Assembly: GCA_017656425.1 (NCBI GenBank)
Contig: JACDNV010000001.1
Coordinates: 248,001-312,000 of the forward strand
Reading direction: 5' to 3'
Source of the DNA: Candidatus Neomarinimicrobiota bacterium
GTDB taxonomy: Bacteria > Fidelibacterota > UBA2242 > B5-G15
DNA: 64,000 nt
In this document: piece after piece, positions 5,786 to 21,566 of the stretch
How positions within the stretch are numbered: the first letter of the stretch is position 1
How the letters are laid out: each line of letters opens with the position of its first letter
Notes under the pieces: generated by a model
Seen by the model: the letters and a program-made list of their open reading frames with translations, nothing else
Database searches by the model: none
What the model was told of the DNA's origin: nothing
Position numbers and translations under genes: made by a program

Positions 5786-5896
5786 ATGAAGGGTGGTATT
5801 AATATTAACACAAAAACTATAAAAACGACACAGACCACCCACGAATATTTCCAAACAAACTTAACGAATATTCCTACAACTACAACAGGTAGATAA
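5786..5896 (+). CDS. Threonine operon leader peptide (ThrL-like)
   Basis: A 36-codon ORF opens with MKGGININTKTIKTTQTTH and closes with NIPTTTTGR before TAA. It contains 12 Thr codons and 4 Ile codons, including four consecutive Thr codons close to the stop. That is the composition expected of a leader whose translation senses charged tRNA-Thr and perhaps tRNA-Ile, as in the enterobacterial thr operon. GGAG lies 11 bases before the ATG. The ORF is followed by strong inverted repeats and then by the proC-like, homoserine dehydrogenase, thrB and thrC genes. The peptide sequence itself resembles no enteric ThrL beyond composition, so the role is inferred from codons, position and downstream hairpins. 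Confidence 0.75.
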   Translation: MKGGININTKTIKTTQTTHEYFQTNLTNIPTTTTGR

Positions 5897-12952: not shown

Positions 12953-13297
12953 CTACTTTTCACCTTTGCTAAGGATTTCATTAAAAAAACAGCTTCTATT
13001 CCCAGTATGACATGCTGGTCCTATCTGTTCAACTTTTATAAGAAGTGCGTCCTTATCACAATCTGCGTAGATTTCCTTTACATATTGAATATTCCCGCTT
13101 GTTTCTCCCTTACGCCATAATGTCTGTCTTGACCTGGACCAGAAGCATGTCCTGCCCTCCTTTAAAGTTATACTAAGACTTTCTTTATTCATATAGCCAA
13201 CCATAAGTACTTCGTTTGACTTATGATCCTGGATTACAGCTGGTACCAATCCCTTTTCATCATACTTTAATTCATTAATATCTTTCAACTTTTCCAT
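12953..13297 (-). CDS. hisI: Phosphoribosyl-AMP cyclohydrolase
   Basis: HisI opens the adenine ring of PR-AMP in step 3 of histidine synthesis. The conserved core [28 protein letters not shown] and [27 protein letters not shown] carries the Zn/Mg-binding Cys and Asp residues. The 114-residue product is the single-domain form: the HisE (PR-ATP pyrophosphohydrolase) domain often fused to its C-terminus is absent. It is the last gene of the operon, and its start overlaps or abuts the hisF stop. Confidence 0.95.
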
Positions 13298-13298
13298 C

Positions 13299-14057
13299 TC
13301 AATACCTCACTGGAATTCCTCTTTCGCTTAGATATCTCTTTAATTCACTTATTTTTATCTGATCATAATGAAAAACCGATGCAGCAAGTACTGCATCTGC
13401 TTTTCCAAGCTTTATCGCATCATAAAAATGCCTAAGTTTACCCCCACCTCCGGAGGCTATTACAGGCACAGATACAGATTCACTTACTTTTCTATTTAAC
13501 TCATTATCAAATCCCTCCTTTGTACCATCAGCATCCATACTTGTCAATAGTATCTCACCTGCTCCAAGCTCCACACCTTTCGCTGCCCATTCAATAGCAT
13601 CTATATCAGTCGCCTCTTTACCACCATAAATGTAGACAACCCATTTATCGTCACCAACTCTTTTTGCATCAATGGCAAGTACTATACATTGAGATCCAAA
13701 AATCTCGGCACCTGCCCTTATTAGATCAGGATTCTTAATAGCTGCTGTGTTGATACTTACTTTATCTGCACCTCTGGATAAAATCATTCGCATATCTTCC
13801 ACTGTTTTTATGCCACCGCCTATTGTAAATGGAATAAAAATTTCTCTCGCCACACGTTCCGCAAGATCTGCTATTATCCTTCTTTTTTCTGCCGATGCTG
13901 TTATATCAAGAAACACCAACTCATCAGCCCCTTCATCATTGTATCTCTTTCCCAATTCTACCGGATCACCTGCATATCTGAGATTCTCAAAGTGTATCCC
14001 CTTCACGACCTTTCCATCTTTCACATCCAGACAGGGAATAATTCTCTTTGTAAGCAT
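13299..14057 (-). CDS. hisF: Imidazole glycerol phosphate synthase, cyclase subunit
   Basis: HisF is the (beta-alpha)8 subunit that receives ammonia from HisH and forms IGP and AICAR from PRFAR. The catalytic Asp residues lie in [16 protein letters not shown] (Asp11) and VLAIDAKR. The phosphate-binding loops TIGGGIK and IASGGGGK are present. At 252 residues it is the usual size. One base separates it from the hisA stop, with GAGG before the ATG. Confidence 0.97.
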
Positions 14058-14058
14058 A

Positions 14059-14787
14059 TTAGTCCTCTAAAATAGCAATTGCTTTATCTATTTCTATGCT
14101 GCCTTCATATAATGCTTTACCTACAATTACACTATCTACATTCTTACCTTCGAGCTTTTTCAATCTAACAAGATCATCATAACCAGAAACTCCACCAGAA
14201 GCTATTACCTTAGCAGATCGTAATGAAGAAGCAAAGCTTTTGATCGAATCAAGGGAGATTCCTATAAGCGTTCCATCTTTTTTTATATCAGTGAATAAAA
14301 ATCTCTTAACCCCAATTTCTTCCATTTTACCTGCAAATTCAATTGCCTTTATGTCAGATACCTCTTTCCATCCGCGTAACGCAACAAAATCACCCAATAC
14401 ATCCACAGCAACCACAATCCTGTCAGAACCAAATGTTTTAATTGCATCTTCCAGAAGATGAGGATACATCACTGCCATGGTTCCAATCACTACTCTCTTT
14501 ATACCCATTGAAAGCCACCTATCAATATCCCTCAGTGACCTTATACCACCTCCAAGCTGAATATCAATCACCTTCTCTTTAACAATCTTTTCTACTACTT
14601 TTTTATTTCCCCCTATTTCAATCGCTGAATCAAGATCGACGATATGAATCATATCCAAACCCTGACTGGAAAACCTTTTTACCAGTTTAACAGGATCATC
14701 ACAATACACTTTTTTTTCTTTAATATTACCCTTTGTTAATCTAACACACTTTCCTTCGCTTAGATCAATTGCAGGTATCAATTTCAT
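14059..14787 (-). CDS. hisA: ProFAR isomerase
   Basis: HisA performs the Amadori isomerization of ProFAR to PRFAR. The motif [15 protein letters not shown] (Asp8), the LGGGIRS and ASGGVSG phosphate loops and VVAVDVLGD with the second catalytic Asp are visible. It is 242 residues, a TIM barrel paralogous to hisF next door. It lies in the standard hisH-hisA-hisF order. Confidence 0.97.
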
Positions 14788-14805
14788 ATTGTCCAGTTCT
14801 ATCTT

Positions 14806-15414
14806 TCAAAGCTTTGCAAAATTTTCAAGCAATTTCAACCCCACTTTATGACTTTTTTCAGGATGGAATTGTACCCCATAAACATAATCCTGTGCTGTTG
14901 CCACACAGAACTTCCTACCATATTCGGTTACAGCAATAACATTTCTGGAGTATGCAGGTCTACAATAATACGAATGAACAAAATAAAAATATTCCCCACT
15001 TCTAATACCTCTAAATAACTCATTATCCGCTATTATTTCGACACTATTCCAGCCCATATGAGGTACCTTTTCAACTCCCTCAATTTTTAGTACCTCACCA
15101 TCAATTAAATCAAGACCCTTCCATACCCCATTTTCATAACTTTTGGTGAATAATAATTGCATTCCAAGACATATTCCGAGAAGTGGAATATTCTTATCTA
15201 CTTTTTCAACAATTACCTCATTAAATTTCCCATGTCTCAACTTTTCTATCGCTGGTTTAAAAGCACCAACACCGGGAAGGATTAGCTTATCAGCCTTTTT
15301 TACCTCTAAAATGTTTGATGTTACAACAATGTCATAACCAAGGTAATCAAAAGCATTCTTCAGACTTGCGAGATTACCAACACCATAATCAATAATTACA
15401 ATATTCTGTGCCAA
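14806..15414 (-). CDS. hisH: Imidazole glycerol phosphate synthase, glutaminase subunit
   Basis: HisH is the class I amidotransferase supplying ammonia to HisF. The nucleophile is in LGICLGMQLLF and the His-Glu pair in YGVQFHPEKSHKVG. The oxyanion-strand motif PGVGAF and IDYGVGNLASLKNA are also typical. The frame starts with TTG at 15414, two bases after the hisB stop. No ATG is available nearby, so a TTG start with coupling is the best reading. Product length is 202 residues. Confidence 0.95.
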   Translation of the reverse strand: MAQNIVIIDYGVGNLASLKNAFDYLGYDIVVTSNILEVKKADKLILPGVGAFKPAIEKLRHGKFNEVIVEKVDKNIPLLGICLGMQLLFTKSYENGVWKGLDLIDGEVLKIEGVEKVPHMGWNSVEIIADNELFRGIRSGEYFYFVHSYYCRPAYSRNVIAVTEYGRKFCVATAQDYVYGVQFHPEKSHKVGLKLLENFAKL

Positions 15415-15416
15415 GG

Positions 15417-16001
15417 CTATTCCCCTATTATTCCTTTTGTTGAAGGAATGTTTCCATCAATGGGTAACACCGCCATTTTTAATACTCTACCAAAACACTT
15501 AAAAACAGCCTCTGCAATGTGATGTGAATTACCAGTTTTTAAAATGTCTATGTGTAGTGCAATTTTCGACTCTCTAACAAATCCCATAAAAAATTCCTTT
15601 ATACACTCAGTAGAAAGCTCTCCAATCTTTTCCCTCGTAATTTCAACATTATAATTAAGGTAGCTTCTGCCCCCGATATCGATTGCAACCCGTGCAAGGA
15701 CCTCATCCATAGGCATTACAAAAAAGCCATATCTCGATATTCCTGATCTATCGCCCAGTATACTATTTAGAGCCTGTCCCAGGGCTATCCCTACGTCCTC
15801 AACTAAATGATGATCATCTACAAAAGTATCCCCTTCTGCTTTGACATTTAAATTAAAGCCACCATGAAAGGCAAACAATTCAAGAAGATGATTAAAAAAC
15901 CCTAATGGAGTATTTACTGATATTTTTCCACAACCATCCAAATTCAATTCAAGCTCGATTTGAGTTTCTTTTGTTTTTCTTACAATTTTTTTTGATCTCA
16001 T
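15417..16001 (-). CDS. hisB: Imidazoleglycerol-phosphate dehydratase
   Basis: This is the monofunctional IGPD (194 residues), which dehydrates IGP to imidazole acetol phosphate. The manganese-binding motifs are FVDDHHLVEDVGIALGQ and GNSHHIAEAVFKCFGR. GFFNHLLELFAFHGG at residues about 33-47 carries a further His. The histidinol-phosphatase domain fused to HisB in enterobacteria is missing here, but a HAD-type gene sits immediately upstream. Confidence 0.97.
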   Translation of the reverse strand: MRSKKIVRKTKETQIELELNLDGCGKISVNTPLGFFNHLLELFAFHGGFNLNVKAEGDTFVDDHHLVEDVGIALGQALNSILGDRSGISRYGFFVMPMDEVLARVAIDIGGRSYLNYNVEITREKIGELSTECIKEFFMGFVRESKIALHIDILKTGNSHHIAEAVFKCFGRVLKMAVLPIDGNIPSTKGIIGE

Positions 16002-16003
16002 TT

Positions 16004-16900
16004 TTATTTCCTTTCAAAAACTTTTAGGACTTCATTCATATCTCTAGTGGCAATTACGTCGCTATCAAAAGCATCGGCGCTATTATTAATTATCTGAATA
16101 AATATCACATTATCATCACCTGAAATTTCTTTATAATTTTTAACGACCAAATAGTCATCGTAGGAATCTCCAAAATAGACTATACCACTAGCATTCAATT
16201 TATTTTTGATAATTTCCAGTATTCTACCATCAGGTTTTACTATTCCTTCTCTGCCATGATAAAAAATAAAATCAAAAACATCCTCCAATCCATTTCTTTC
16301 AAGAAAAATTTCCAATTCCTTTATATTTCTACCCGTTACAATAGCTTTCTTAAGTTTTAGTCTCTTTAACATTTCCCTATCAACGAGTAGATATTCATTT
16401 TCAAGCATTCCTTTTTCAAAAACATACTGATTTTCAAAACCATACAATCTTTTACAATAATTTATCCCACCGTAATATTCCATTGTTAACTTTCTTATAA
16501 GGTTATTATTAAATAACTCTTTTAATTTATTCTTTAACCCCGGATCTAAATTCTCAATGATTTTATAAACAGAATACAATCCAATACCATTTTCCTTTAC
16601 ATCTTTTAAAAAATTATCCAGACTATCATATACACACAAATGTTCTAGAATTTTGTATGCCAATAAAGCTTCAGCCAAGTCCCAGTCATTATTAAATCCA
16701 GGTAGCATACGAAAAGAGGTAACATCTTTTACAGTGGGCATTTCCCAACGTTCCATACCATACATATTGCCATAATTATACACAGCCCTCCTTATAGCCT
16801 CGGTGTATGAAGTGGATGTGTCTACAAGTACCCCATCTACATCAAAAACAAGTAAATTTACTTTATCCTTCACCATCATAGGCTTATTTATTCCACCCAT
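16004..16900 (-). CDS. HAD-family phosphatase in the his operon, candidate histidinol-phosphatase
   Basis: The 298-residue protein has HAD motif I in LLVFDVDGVLVDTSTSY (nucleophile Asp and acid/base Asp), a helical cap region (residues about 40-185), motif II around AIVTGRNIKE, a Lys in GIVKPDG and motif IV in VYFGDSYDDY. It lies between hisC and hisB with gaps of four and two bases. The operon otherwise lacks a histidinol-phosphate phosphatase, so this gene is the obvious candidate for dephosphorylating L-histidinol phosphate. The cap is unlike that of HisB-N or SerB. The catalytic class is read from the sequence. The substrate is inferred from position. Confidence 0.75.
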   Translation of the reverse strand: MGGINKPMMVKDKVNLLVFDVDGVLVDTSTSYTEAIRRAVYNYGNMYGMERWEMPTVKDVTSFRMLPGFNNDWDLAEALLAYKILEHLCVYDSLDNFLKDVKENGIGLYSVYKIIENLDPGLKNKLKELFNNNLIRKLTMEYYGGINYCKRLYGFENQYVFEKGMLENEYLLVDREMLKRLKLKKAIVTGRNIKELEIFLERNGLEDVFDFIFYHGREGIVKPDGRILEIIKNKLNASGIVYFGDSYDDYLVVKNYKEISGDDNVIFIQIINNSADAFDSDVIATRDMNEVLKVFERK

Positions 16901-16904
16901 TAAA

Positions 16905-17978
16905 TCATACTCTGCTCAATATTTCATCCATAGCATTTAATAAAAGCTCATTTTCCTCTGGCTTTCCCACTGTTATTCTCAAATGATTCTCTAGAAGAGG
17001 ATAATATGATACATCACGAACCAATATACCTTTTTCTATCAGACCTTTATACAAAATTCTATAATCGAAATAGGTTTTAATCAATATAAAATTCGCATCT
17101 GATTTATACGCTTTAATATTATCAAATTTTCTTAATCCATTAAACAAAATTTCTCTCTGTTCCACAATCTTTTTAACACTTTCTTTAATAAACTTCTCAT
17201 TGTTAATAAACGATGAAACTATTGCTTCCGTTATAGAACTAAGATTATAGGGAAACATTGCTTTCCTAACTTCTATCGCAAGATCAACTGGCAATATACC
17301 ATATCCAAATCTCCCACCTGCAAAGGAAAATGCTTTCGAAAATGTCCTGACCAGTATAAGATTATCATATTTATATACATACTCTTTTAAATCTTGATCG
17401 GTAAAGTCAATGTATGCTTCATCTACTATCACATAGCCTTGTGCATTTTCAATTATTTCTTTCAGTTCAGCTTTTTCGATTTTCGTACCTGTTGGATTGT
17501 TCGGTGAACATAAAACAATCAGCTTGTAATTACTTTTTGCCTTTTTTACAAGTATCTCAACAGGGAAAGAAAAATCATCGCGTTTTAAATAAACAACAAC
17601 ATTTTCAGCTTCAAGTATTCTCAGAAAGTTGTCTATCATAGAAAATGTAGGTGCAACAGTTAAAACCATATCACCCTTTGATATCATACAAAACATTATA
17701 AAAAAAAGCACCTCATTGGAACCATTCCCCAGAATTATCCTATCTTTATCTACTTTTAGCCACCTGCCAATTTTTTCTCTCAATGCACTATAAGTAAGAT
17801 CAGGATATCTGTTCCAGCTGATACTCCTCACCTTTTCCAGAATTTGATCCTTAATACTATCTGGTAAATCATAGGGATTTTCATTCTGGTTCAGCTTAAC
17901 TATATATTTAATCGAAGGCAGCGAGTAAGGCAACCTCTCCCTTATTACTTTTTTTACAAATTTTTCTACCCTATTCAT
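16905..17978 (-). CDS. hisC: Histidinol-phosphate aminotransferase
   Basis: HisC transaminates imidazole acetol phosphate using glutamate and PLP. Family marks include LNQNENPYDLPDSI, LGNGSNEVL, LCSPNNPTGT, VIVDEAYIDF and the PLP lysine in LVRTFSKAFSFAGGRFGYG. The 357-residue length is normal for the fold type I enzyme. Its ATG overlaps the hisD stop by four bases. Confidence 0.96.
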   Translation of the reverse strand: MNRVEKFVKKVIRERLPYSLPSIKYIVKLNQNENPYDLPDSIKDQILEKVRSISWNRYPDLTYSALREKIGRWLKVDKDRIILGNGSNEVLFFIMFCMISKGDMVLTVAPTFSMIDNFLRILEAENVVVYLKRDDFSFPVEILVKKAKSNYKLIVLCSPNNPTGTKIEKAELKEIIENAQGYVIVDEAYIDFTDQDLKEYVYKYDNLILVRTFSKAFSFAGGRFGYGILPVDLAIEVRKAMFPYNLSSITEAIVSSFINNEKFIKESVKKIVEQREILFNGLRKFDNIKAYKSDANFILIKTYFDYRILYKGLIEKGILVRDVSYYPLLENHLRITVGKPEENELLLNAMDEILSRV

Positions 17979-19255
17979 TTCATCAACCTAACTTTAATTG
18001 CCTTTGCATGAGCGGTAAGTCCCTCAAGCTCTGCCAATTTAATTATCTTCTCTCCATCAGCAGCTAATCTGCTCCTGTCACAATGCAGATAATTTATCCA
18101 TTTTAGATAATCTCTCACAGATAATCCCGAAGAAAAACGAGCACTTCTACCTGTGGGCAATACGTGATTTGTTCCAGCCCAGTAATCACCAATGGGCTCA
18201 GGAGTCTCATCTCCAATAAATACAGCTCCAGCATTTTTTATGCGATGCAGTATAGAATCAGCATCCTTTAGATGTAGCTCAAGGTGCTCCGGAGCAATGG
18301 CATTGACTATCTCGATAGCTTCCTCCAAACTCTTTACTTTTACAATCGCCCCATTCTCTGTAATTGACCTAGATGCAATCTCTTTTCTTTCAATTTCCTG
18401 TAAAAATTTATCAATAGACTTGCAGATTCTCTCAGCATTTTCATTATCTATCGTTACACAAATAGCTTTTGATAATGGATCATGTTCTGCCTGTGATAAC
18501 ATATCTATCGCTATATATTCGGGATTAGCGCTATCATCAGCCATAACAACAACTTCACTAGGTCCCGCAATAGAATCAATTCCAACATATCCAAAGACCT
18601 GCCTTTTCGCCTCTGCAACATAAACATTTCCCGGACCCGTTATTTTATCGACAGGTCTTATACTTTCTGTTCCAAATGCCAGAGCAGCGATTGCATGTGC
18701 TCCCCCCACAACGTATACTTCTTTAATCTCCAGCATATCAAGAATAGCTGCCACATATTTATTTAACCTGCCTGTTCTGGTATCAGGCGGTGATACTACT
18801 ACTATTTCTTTAACACCCGCTACCATAGCCGGGACTACATTCATTAAAACAGAAGACGGATAGCTTGCTGTCCCACCCGGTACATATAACCCTGCCCTTT
18901 CAACCGGCACCAATCGTTGTCCCATCAAAATACCGGAACTTTTTAACTCCCAGCTGGATATATTTTTCAACTCCTGGTGATGAAAATGTTTTATATTTTC
19001 ATATGCCTGGTGAAACAGATCGAGTTCCTCTTTGGAAACTTTATTCTCCTCGTCAAAGTCATCCTTATCAGCTTTCACACTTTTCCTCTTGATACCATCA
19101 AATTTCATAGTGTATCTCAAAAGTGCTTTATCACCATTCATCCTAACATCGTTTATAATTTCGCTTACACTACCGGAAACTTCAATTTGTTTTAAACGGT
19201 CAAAATAATAATTATCAATAAAGTCTTTTATATTCTCAAAAATTTTTATAGGCAT
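17975..19255 (-). CDS. hisD: Histidinol dehydrogenase
   Basis: HisD oxidizes histidinol to histidine in two NAD-dependent steps. Visible signatures are PVERAGLYVPGGTASYPSSVLM, DKITGPGNVYVAEAK, IAGPSEVVVMAD, the catalytic and zinc region MLSQAEHDP, and FIGDETPEPIGDYWAGTNHVLPTG. Length is 426 residues. It follows hisG after 10 bases, so the last enzyme of the pathway is encoded second, as in many his operons. Confidence 0.97.
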   Translation of the reverse strand: MPIKIFENIKDFIDNYYFDRLKQIEVSGSVSEIINDVRMNGDKALLRYTMKFDGIKRKSVKADKDDFDEENKVSKEELDLFHQAYENIKHFHHQELKNISSWELKSSGILMGQRLVPVERAGLYVPGGTASYPSSVLMNVVPAMVAGVKEIVVVSPPDTRTGRLNKYVAAILDMLEIKEVYVVGGAHAIAALAFGTESIRPVDKITGPGNVYVAEAKRQVFGYVGIDSIAGPSEVVVMADDSANPEYIAIDMLSQAEHDPLSKAICVTIDNENAERICKSIDKFLQEIERKEIASRSITENGAIVKVKSLEEAIEIVNAIAPEHLELHLKDADSILHRIKNAGAVFIGDETPEPIGDYWAGTNHVLPTGRSARFSSGLSVRDYLKWINYLHCDRSRLAADGEKIIKLAELEGLTAHAKAIKVRLMK

Positions 19256-19265
19256 AAAAATCTCC

Positions 19266-20135
19266 TTAATATATAACTTTATTCAAAGGATACTCGATAA
19301 TGTCGGTAGCTCCGTAGTCTTTCAATTGTGGTATAATTTCTCTAACAACTTTCTCATCTACAATCACTTCAAGAGCTACCCAATCTTTATCAAGTAAAGG
19401 AGATATAGTTGGTTCTTTCATTGCAGGTACAAATTTCTTTATTTCCTCAACTTTATCTTTTCGGATATTGAATTTTAATCCTACTTTTTCCTTTGCCCTT
19501 ATTGCCCCCTGTAATAGAAGAGCTATGTTATCAATTTTCCTTTTTTTCTTTTTATCCATATATGATTCTTTATTAGCAATAAACCTCGTAGTAGATTCAA
19601 GGACTGTATCGATTATTCTCAAATTGTTAGCTCTTAAGGACGATCCAGTTTCTGTCAATTCGACAATAGCATCTACCAATCTTGGGGCTTTCACTTCTGT
19701 TGCCCCCCATGAGAATTCTACCTCGGCTTTTACACCCTTTTTCTCCAGATATCTCTTTGTAAGATTTACCGCTTCTGTAGCAATTCTTTTGCCATTTAAA
19801 TCATATACAGACTGAATCGGTGAATCATTCGGCACAGCAAGCACCCATTTAACAGGAGAGAAACTGCTTTTGGCATATACAAGTTCACATACCTCAACTA
19901 CATCAGCCCCAGATTCAATTATCCAATCGAGACCTGTTAGACCTGCATCAAGAACATTTTTCTCAACGTACTTAGCCATCTCCTGAGCTCTTACAAGTAT
20001 TGCCTCTATCTCATTATCATCACATACAGGGAAATAGCTTCTAGCACTTACACGAAACCTAAAACCTGCCAGCCTGAATAATTCAAATGTGCTTTCTTGC
20101 AAACTACCTTTTGGCAAACCAAGTCTTAATATCAT
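19266..20135 (-). CDS. hisG: ATP phosphoribosyltransferase, long form
   Basis: HisG commits ATP and PRPP to histidine synthesis. The core has [45 protein letters not shown], and [22 protein letters not shown] as the PRPP loop. With 289 residues and the C-terminal [20 protein letters not shown] region it is the long form, whose ACT-like domain binds histidine for feedback inhibition without HisZ. I place the start at 20135, where GGAGG precedes ATG by 10 bases. The frame stays open to 20237, but that extension runs through the attenuator hairpins and is not likely to be coding. Confidence 0.95.
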
Positions 20136-20185
20136 AATTATTGTTCCTCCATTTTTTTCTTTCATTGGAATTGAGGACACGGGAT

Positions 20186-20227
20186 AAAAAACCCGGGTCC
20201 TCAACTCCCTCACCTGAGAACCCGGGT
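20186..20227 (-). terminator. Attenuator terminator of the his operon
   Basis: On the minus strand a 13-bp stem (one G-U pair) forms between bases 20227-20215 (ACCCGGGTTCTCA) and 20203-20191 (TGAGGACCCGGGT), with an 11-base loop. It is followed at once by a run of T residues ending at 20186. This is a textbook intrinsic terminator placed between the leader ORF and hisG. Its 5' arm also pairs with leader-ORF sequence, as described for the antiterminator. A third stem, GAGGAC (20202-20197) with GTCCTC (20178-20173), overlaps its 3' arm. Confidence 0.85.
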
Positions 20228-20270
20228 CTTCTCTCAAATTAAAAACATCACCCGGAAATTCTCTCAGGTG
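20211..20270 (-). promoter_or_regulatory. Antiterminator helix of the his attenuator
   Basis: CACCTGAGA at 20270-20262, inside the leader ORF, pairs perfectly over 9 bp with TCTCAGGTG at 20219-20211. The second arm covers five bases of the terminator 5' arm, so the two structures exclude each other. An inner stem CCGGGT (20255-20250) with ACCCGG (20227-20222) would strengthen it and would capture the rest of the terminator arm. A ribosome paused at the His codons would leave this helix free to form. A ribosome at the stop codon would cover it. Confidence 0.75.
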
Positions 20271-20310
20271 GGCATTTTAAATGGTAATGTCGATGATATA
20301 CTAACTTCAT
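20248..20310 (-). CDS. His operon leader peptide (HisL-like)
   Basis: A 20-codon ORF starts at 20310 and ends with TGA at 20250-20248. It encodes [10 protein letters not shown] followed by [10 protein letters not shown]. Three of codons 6-10 are His, and the other two are Arg and Tyr. It lies between a candidate promoter and the terminator/antiterminator pair upstream of hisG, as expected for a leader that senses charged tRNA-His. The His run is shorter than in enteric HisL, and the Shine-Dalgarno signal is weak. The match between codon position and the alternative hairpins makes chance unlikely. Confidence 0.8.
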
Positions 20311-20342: not shown

Positions 20343-20371
20343 AATATGCCTTAAAATTTTTAATCTTTCAA
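20343..20371 (-). promoter_or_regulatory. Candidate promoter of the his operon
   Basis: On the minus strand TTGAAA (20371-20366) and CATATT (20348-20343) are spaced by 17 bases. They place transcription start a few tens of bases before the leader ORF. The match is moderate (five and four of six) in AT-rich DNA. Confidence 0.4.
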
Positions 20372-20484: not shown

Positions 20485-20645
20485 ATAACTGATATTTGAT
20501 CAATTACAAAATTTTGTGACTTAAATCAAGCGGCAAAAGTTTTTAATCCCAAAAAGTGATAGAAAACATATTAAAATAAATAAATAAAGTATAAACTTTT
20601 ATCGGCTGAAAAGTAAAGTGTAATTGAAAAACCGAAAAGGTGGAA

Positions 20646-21566
20646 ATGAGGAAGAATAAAATAATAATACTTGCCATAAAAATAGTCGTAATAATAGCGA
20701 TCACTACGCATTTATTGTTAATTAATAGCCATGATTCTGTCGGTAGCAGTAGAGGAGAAATACCTCCTGCATATTCAAACTTGATTAATCAGCTAGAAAA
20801 GGAAGGTTTCCACAGAGACTTTTTGATTAATTTATATTCCGATCCAAGAGTAGAATTCTATGAACAATCGATTTATAAAAATATTATCGATAATGTCTCT
20901 AGCTATGTTTCAGATATATATAGAGAAAAAGTTCAAATATATGATATTGACGATTTTATACGTGAATACGATGATTATCTAAAAGCTGCTGAAGAAAGGT
21001 TTAATGTTGAAAAAGAAACAATCGTAGCAATACTTTTCACAGAGACGAAACTCGGGAAAATAATCGGCAAATATCCTGTTTTCAACGTTCTCAGCTCATT
21101 AGCCGTAGCAAGTGAGCCTAAAAATCTACAAAAGATAGAACACTACGTAAACATAAAATACCATTATTATGACTATGACACTAGACAACAAGTAATAAGA
21201 AAGTTAAAAGAAAGAGCAATAGAACGTAGCAATTGGGCGAAAAGCGAGCTTGTCTCTCTTCTGAAACTTCATTTAACAACAAAAATTGATGCCCTTTCTC
21301 TAGTGGGCTCATATGCTGGGGCGTTTGGTTTACCTCAATTTATGCCATCAAGTATGATAAAATATGGAGTTGATGGTGATAATGACGGAGATATAGACCT
21401 ATATTCCTACCCCGATGCTATCATGAGCGTAGCAAATTTCCTAAGTAATTCCGGGTGGAGCAAACATCACGTCAACAAAAGGAGAGCCTTGCTCAGATAT
21501 AACTACAGCAGCAGATACGTCAGACGCGTTCTTAACCTCGCTTCTTTATTAAACAAAAGATATTAA
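20646..21566 (+). CDS. MltB-type lytic murein transglycosylase
   Basis: This exported enzyme cleaves the glycan strands of peptidoglycan to anhydromuropeptides. An N-terminal signal or anchor segment covers residues about 5-25. The catalytic Glu is in IVAILFTETKLGKIIGKYPV, matching the MltB/SLT-3 ETxxG motif. Downstream are SYAGAFGLPQFMPSSMIKYG and DGDNDGDIDLYSYPDAIMSVANFL, typical of the family. A GTG six bases upstream is an alternative start. I prefer ATG 20646 after AAGG. It is transcribed divergently from the his operon. Confidence 0.88.
   Translation: MRKNKIIILAIKIVVIIAITTHLLLINSHDSVGSSRGEIPPAYSNLINQLEKEGFHRDFLINLYSDPRVEFYEQSIYKNIIDNVSSYVSDIYREKVQIYDIDDFIREYDDYLKAAEERFNVEKETIVAILFTETKLGKIIGKYPVFNVLSSLAVASEPKNLQKIEHYVNIKYHYYDYDTRQQVIRKLKERAIERSNWAKSELVSLLKLHLTTKIDALSLVGSYAGAFGLPQFMPSSMIKYGVDGDNDGDIDLYSYPDAIMSVANFLSNSGWSKHHVNKRRALLRYNYSSRYVRRVLNLASLLNKRY

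Follow-up and report, generated by a model that had tools for sequence, protein, structure and literature searches.

In the enteric his attenuator (hisL of E. coli and Salmonella, Rfam RF00514), a leader peptide with seven His codons in a row is encoded before the his operon and is followed by a multi-hairpin relay. The position of the ribosome on this leader picks between an antiterminator and a U-tailed terminator. A survey published in 2010 noted that leader-peptide attenuation had previously been known from Proteobacteria and Actinobacteria only, and added the Firmicutes, with the hisZ/hisS attenuators of bacilli (PMC2965389). His leaders of Firmicutes, which lie outside RF00514, are found in the B. 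cereus group, the Peptostreptococcaceae and the Erysipelotrichales, in lineages without HisR, a DNA-binding repressor related to YerC/TrpR; in this phylum, attenuator and HisR are alternatives (PMC9413887). In Sinorhizobium meliloti, trpL is a leaderless leader-peptide attenuator (PMC7298713).

Here, we analysed the his operon in a stretch of 64,000 nucleotides (the window) from the metagenome-assembled genome of a Candidatus Neomarinimicrobiota (Marinimicrobia) bacterium, and conclude with a probability of about 0.93 that the operon is controlled by a putative ribosome-mediated transcription attenuator sensing charged tRNA-His. The mechanism is a known one; Neomarinimicrobiota is a phylum new to it. 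As in the enteric system, a His-rich leader peptide ORF precedes the operon and ribosome position would choose between an antiterminator and a U-tailed terminator. Thus, the “enteric his logic” proposed for this locus in an earlier sequence-only reading stands as far as the logic goes, but not for the architecture: instead of a run of seven His codons and a multi-hairpin relay, the window has three dispersed His codons and a three-arm switch, to which a hairpin is added after read-through. The RF00514 model has no match in the window leader (E-values up to 5) or, at the gathering threshold, in 16 related loci. Since the enteric system belongs to a distant phylum, the two probably arose independently, or else their relationship is no longer recognisable. 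Among open-licence PMC papers, we found no report joining Marinimicrobia with leader peptides, or Neomarinimicrobiota with histidine biosynthesis, and the earlier remark that such leaders are rarely documented in this lineage appears fair.

The leader peptide ORF and the his locus

The leader peptide ORF (20310-20248; minus strand, as are all features below unless stated otherwise) has 20 codons, three of them (6, 8 and 10) encoding His. Its stop codon occupies 20250-20248 and the hisG start lies 112 nt further downstream. No clear Shine-Dalgarno sequence was seen before the leader ORF, and the peptide has no Pfam family match. Upstream, a candidate promoter (20343..20371) is made of TTGAAA (20371-20366), a 17-nt spacer and CATATT (20348-20343); it matches the consensus at 9 of 12 positions, a weak match and one of consensus only, and would place the transcription start at about 20336, with about 25 nt of 5’ UTR ahead of the leader ATG. 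The first gene of the operon, hisG (ATP phosphoribosyltransferase, 19266..20135), scores 177.6 bits with TIGR00070 and 105.2 bits with TIGR03455, both exceeding the cut-off, and is preceded by a Shine-Dalgarno motif, GGAGG, read from the sequence at 20146..20150. The remaining his operon (12953..19255) comprises hisD, hisC, a HAD hydrolase gene, hisB and putative hisH, hisA, hisF and hisI genes. Profile searches identified hisD, hisC, hisB and the HAD protein, while hisH, hisA, hisF and hisI were assigned from translations and gene order; the HAD-family hydrolase is likely the histidinol phosphatase. The hisG frame is open upstream as far as a TTG at 20237 (20237-20136), and automated gene prediction may for this reason extend hisG too far, into the attenuator.

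Taken by itself, the His cluster is moderately unusual and a modest signal: short ORFs with such a cluster number 29 over both strands of the 64-kb window, mostly inside or opposite genes, and were found in none of 200 dinucleotide shuffles of the leader region (360 nt). This abundance of His clusters would fit a reading in which the ORF is a product of chance and the hairpin behind it an ordinary terminator that either serves an upstream transcript or works constitutively and in part. We consider this extremely unlikely. The neighbouring gene, encoding a lytic transglycosylase (20640-21566), is divergent from the his operon, leaving no upstream transcript that needs a terminator, and, across the phylum, His ORF, terminator and overlapping antiterminator co-occur far above chance. 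Because of this divergent neighbour, the leader is assigned to the his operon.

Elsewhere in the window, a Thr/Ile-rich leader ORF (5786-5896, plus strand), encoding MKGGININTKTIKTTQTTHEYFQTNLTNIPTTTTGR up to its stop codon, stands before a proC-hom-thrB-thrC operon and has behind it a hairpin (CTCCCGGGA/TCCCGGGAG) that lacks a U-tract. This is a possible threonine attenuator, perhaps a translational one; in relatives, the 1.5 kb preceding the hom genes yielded no such leader. Separately, the trpE and ilvB genes were located, both inside longer operons.

Mutually exclusive helices and the proposed switch

Four arms can be delineated in the leader RNA. Arm 1 (CCCACCTGAGAGAATTTCCGGGT, 20250..20272) starts 8 nt past the last His codon, spans the second (3’) half of the leader ORF and ends with the first base of its stop codon. 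Arm 2 (ACCCGGGTTCTCAGGTGAGGGA, 20206..20227) is common to the antiterminator, formed with arm 1, and to the terminator, formed with arm 3 (TTGAGGACCCGGGT, 20191..20204), which is the terminator’s 3’ arm. In the 13-bp terminator, ACCCGGGTTCTCA (20227-20215) pairs with arm 3 (20204-20191), and the predicted termination site, a U-tract, follows as TTTTTT (20191-20186). Arm 4 (CCCGTGTCCTCAA, 20171..20183) would be the partner of arm 3 once the polymerase has cleared the U-tract. Within arms 1 and 2, CACCTGAGA (20270-20262) is complementary to TCTCAGGTG (20219-20211), and the full antiterminator consists of two blocks: CCACCTGAGA with TCTCAGGTG(A)GG, and CCGGGT (20256-20251, to 20250 with its flank) with ACCCGG (20227-20222). 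The sequence-only reading had described the 20-codon minus-strand ORF with three His among codons 6-10, the pairing of a leader-body segment with 20219-20211, the U-tailed terminator of 13 bp (20227-20186) and the overlap of the antiterminator’s second arm with the terminator’s 5’ arm. On re-examination, all four were confirmed, coordinates included; the extent of the antiterminator had been underestimated, its second block having been overlooked, and the arm 3:arm 4 hairpin (arm 4 being 20183-20171) was absent from that reading.

The arm 1:arm 2 duplex has a predicted energy of -31.5 kcal/mol versus a shuffle mean of -13.6 (z = -6.2), and the full antiterminator reaches about -33 kcal/mol once the second block is counted. 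Before arm 3 is made, a ribosome placed on His6 or His8 leaves an antiterminator fold of -33.4 kcal/mol, and one placed on His10 a fold of -27.0 kcal/mol. The terminator is at -28 to -31 kcal/mol (-31.1 when the ribosome occupies the stop codon), and none of 40 shuffles equalled it; folding of the whole region gave z = -3.95 against shuffles. When arms 1-3 are complete, the thermodynamic minimum is the terminator even with arm 1 free (about -40 kcal/mol), and antitermination therefore hangs on co-transcriptional order, as it does in known attenuators. For the full leader after read-through, the best fold is arm 1:arm 2 plus arm 3:arm 4. The ORF, the mutually exclusive helices, their placement relative to the His codons and the stop codon, and the phylum-wide conservation described below are all results of computation.

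How such helices could be operated is suggested by the his/trp paradigm, by analogy with which the leader would be transcribed and translated, would respond to charged tRNA-His and would terminate transcription in vivo. A ribosome would trail the RNA polymerase closely on the leader ORF. When charged tRNA-His is scarce, it would stall at His codon 6, 8 or 10, and even a stall at codon 10 should keep most of arm 1 clear of the ribosome’s leading edge. Free arm 1 would then pair with arm 2 as soon as the latter is made; with the two paired, arm 3 would be unable to build the terminator and the polymerase would read through into hisG, after which arm 4 would capture arm 3 and may lock the read-through state. 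When charged tRNA-His is plentiful, the ribosome would proceed to the stop codon (20250-20248) and mask arm 1, leaving arm 2 and arm 3 to form the U-tailed terminator, and transcription would end near 20186. Every feature by which ribosome-mediated attenuation can be recognised in a sequence appears to be present at the locus: a leader ORF with cognate codons (three His codons ahead of hisG, with translation predicted), an intrinsic terminator between the leader and the first structural gene, a mutually exclusive antiterminator that has an arm in common with the terminator and, as judged by positions only, an antiterminator arm that is masked at the stop codon and free upon stalling.

The position of arm 4 raises the question of whether the leader might act on translation, with the read-through structure governing access to the hisG ribosome-binding site instead of transcription. 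Arm 4 contains TCCTC, for which GAGGA in the Shine-Dalgarno region of hisG is a possible partner; GAGGA would be freed by arm 3:arm 4 pairing, which forms only after read-through. A hairpin of the same shape is present in the closest named relative, Candidatus Neomarinimicrobiota isolate B5_G15 (L029/G001; HisG identity 85%), which has a leader ending in MNSMFCHRHHRKSDPPPELATG at the same place as the window leader. However, arm 4 is known only from these two members of the family, whereas a U-tailed terminator lies upstream of arm 4 and after every leader measured in relatives. Purely translational control is highly unlikely for these reasons; a translational effect of arm 4 could be a layer added to transcription attenuation rather than a replacement for it.

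Conservation across the phylum

The phylum set comprised 199 genomes, 59 of which have hisG, and 58 of the upstream regions were readable. In these, the roughly 350 nt ahead of hisG were scanned for short ORFs in which three His codons are clustered. A His-cluster leader ORF was present in 49 of the 58 regions, versus 1.66 expected from shuffles; the count rises to 54 with one genome in which the His leader is further upstream (G028; MKTESNIKRHHHSHHYTLEVPQRLQSR) and four in which the arrangement is the same but the His codons are more loosely clustered (G030, G040, G082 and G085). Without exception, the 50 leaders measured have a U-tailed hairpin behind them, the native energy of which was reached by 6 of 2000 shuffles. 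The arm 1:arm 2 pairing beats shuffles at p ≤ 0.05 in 34 of 50 leaders (mean z -2.4); of the 16 that fall short of this threshold, six are members of the relay family described below. In a switch of this type, the location of arm 1 is what matters most. When the best partner of the terminator’s 5’ arm was searched for over the whole leader, unrestricted, the footprint of a ribosome halted at the stop codon contained it in 38 of 50 cases (8.3 expected at random), or in 38 of 44 once the relay family is set aside; in 43 of 50, it lay past the last His codon.

We also aligned 23 sequences, drawn from three families. In the terminator helix, 98.2% of cells are paired and 24 double-sided changes are seen, against a shuffle mean of 5.9; in the antiterminator, 91.6% are paired, falling to at most 67% when the arms are slid, with just 3 double-sided-change cells; the aligned sequences share kinship, so these shuffle figures are indicative only. 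The check put forward in the sequence-only reading, a comparison of hisG upstream regions in relatives, thus gave conserved His codons and two helices that stay paired through sequence change, with double-sided changes more numerous in the terminator than in the antiterminator. That reading had named non-conserved His codons combined with freely varying hairpins as the pattern that would speak against attenuation. The opposite is seen, as His codons, terminator and complementarity are all kept, and the stall/stop-codon logic, which fits the geometry of the window, is met again in almost every hisG-bearing genome of the phylum.

Families differ in the sequences of their helix arms, but retain the His codons and the position relative to the stop codon. 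This bears on whether another RNA sensor, be it a T-box, a riboswitch or an RNA-binding protein, works through the same terminator, the ORF being incidental. A structured leader with a terminator would suit such a sensor, and T-boxes and HisR do control his genes elsewhere (PMC9413887), but divergent arms with a persistent stop-codon geometry speak against it. Moreover, the T-box model has no match across the whole window or in related loci, and Rfam as a whole gave no match in the window leader, where hits at E-values up to 5 were spurious only, or in the 16 related loci at the gathering threshold. We regard a sensor of this kind as exceedingly improbable.

A further set of about 80 upstream regions, most of them from other phyla, was collected via similarity to HisG. 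Few contain such ORFs; the contrast is a rough one, and the operon may begin with a gene other than hisG in the regions that lack them. The few leader-bearing regions are mostly from Marinimicrobia or KSB1, and three KSB1 loci (L030, L033 and L047) have similar leaders. No relatives of HisG were found on viral contigs. The putative His attenuator is a phylum-wide trait, not a one-off, and a likely ancestral one.

Variants, exceptions and significance

Within the phylum, the switch takes several forms. Family f7 (G039, G061, G064, G067, G084 and G094) has a five-arm relay behind the leader, with 48-63 nt from the leader stop to the terminator (G067 and G094, for example). From our reading of the folds, read-through would correspond to pairing of A, located at the stop codon, with B and of C with D, the terminator arm, and termination to B:C plus D:E; two arms being added, polarity is unchanged. 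Another genome, G002 (L014), has two tandem His-rich leaders before a single hisG, each with its own U-tailed terminator, spanning -326 to -115 relative to the start of the HisG match. In about half of the relatives, consensus matches place a promoter-like -10 element 8-13 nt ahead of the leader ATG, which predicts little or no 5’ UTR. These predicted near-leaderless transcripts resemble S. meliloti trpL; the window differs from them in its predicted 5’ UTR.

The leader is missing from four of the 58 genomes, and these exceptions serve as an independent test of the attenuator reading. Three of them, G023, G029 and G034 (L177, L174 and L181), are all of the examined members of family f5 with hisG, and f5 is the sole family in which the His leader is wholly missing. 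In all three, a YerC/TrpR-related gene (TIGR02531 above cut-off, PF01371) stands directly before hisG and is, as judged from these profile matches, the HisR-type repressor described in Firmicutes (PMC9413887). Close copies of it (at least 74% identity) were found in no other genome searched, that of the window included. Since f5 has HisR where the leader is missing, attenuator and repressor look like alternatives here as well. The fourth genome, G004 (L156), has neither a His leader nor HisR. Repeated GAACAAGGATTGAAAC units resembling CRISPR repeats lie directly upstream of its hisG.

The Firmicutes His leaders are comparable to those of Neomarinimicrobiota in that a lineage-specific His-rich ORF is followed by a terminator and an antiterminator that RF00514 does not cover. 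However, they are scattered, whereas in Neomarinimicrobiota they are near-universal before his operons. We give an even chance to a fuller evolutionary scheme, in which His attenuation would be ancestral in Neomarinimicrobiota and independent of the proteobacterial type, would have diversified into three-arm, five-arm relay, tandem and near-leaderless forms, and would have been replaced once by HisR, with the window’s family adding a fourth arm that locks read-through.

Near-universal his attenuators in a widespread and mostly uncultivated marine phylum would extend the range of the mechanism. The one-step switch, the relay, the tandem arrangement and the repressor replacement would also form a natural series in which the evolution of such switches can be studied. 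Finally, attenuators of this type would imply tight coupling of transcription and translation in Neomarinimicrobiota, a property that is hard to test otherwise.
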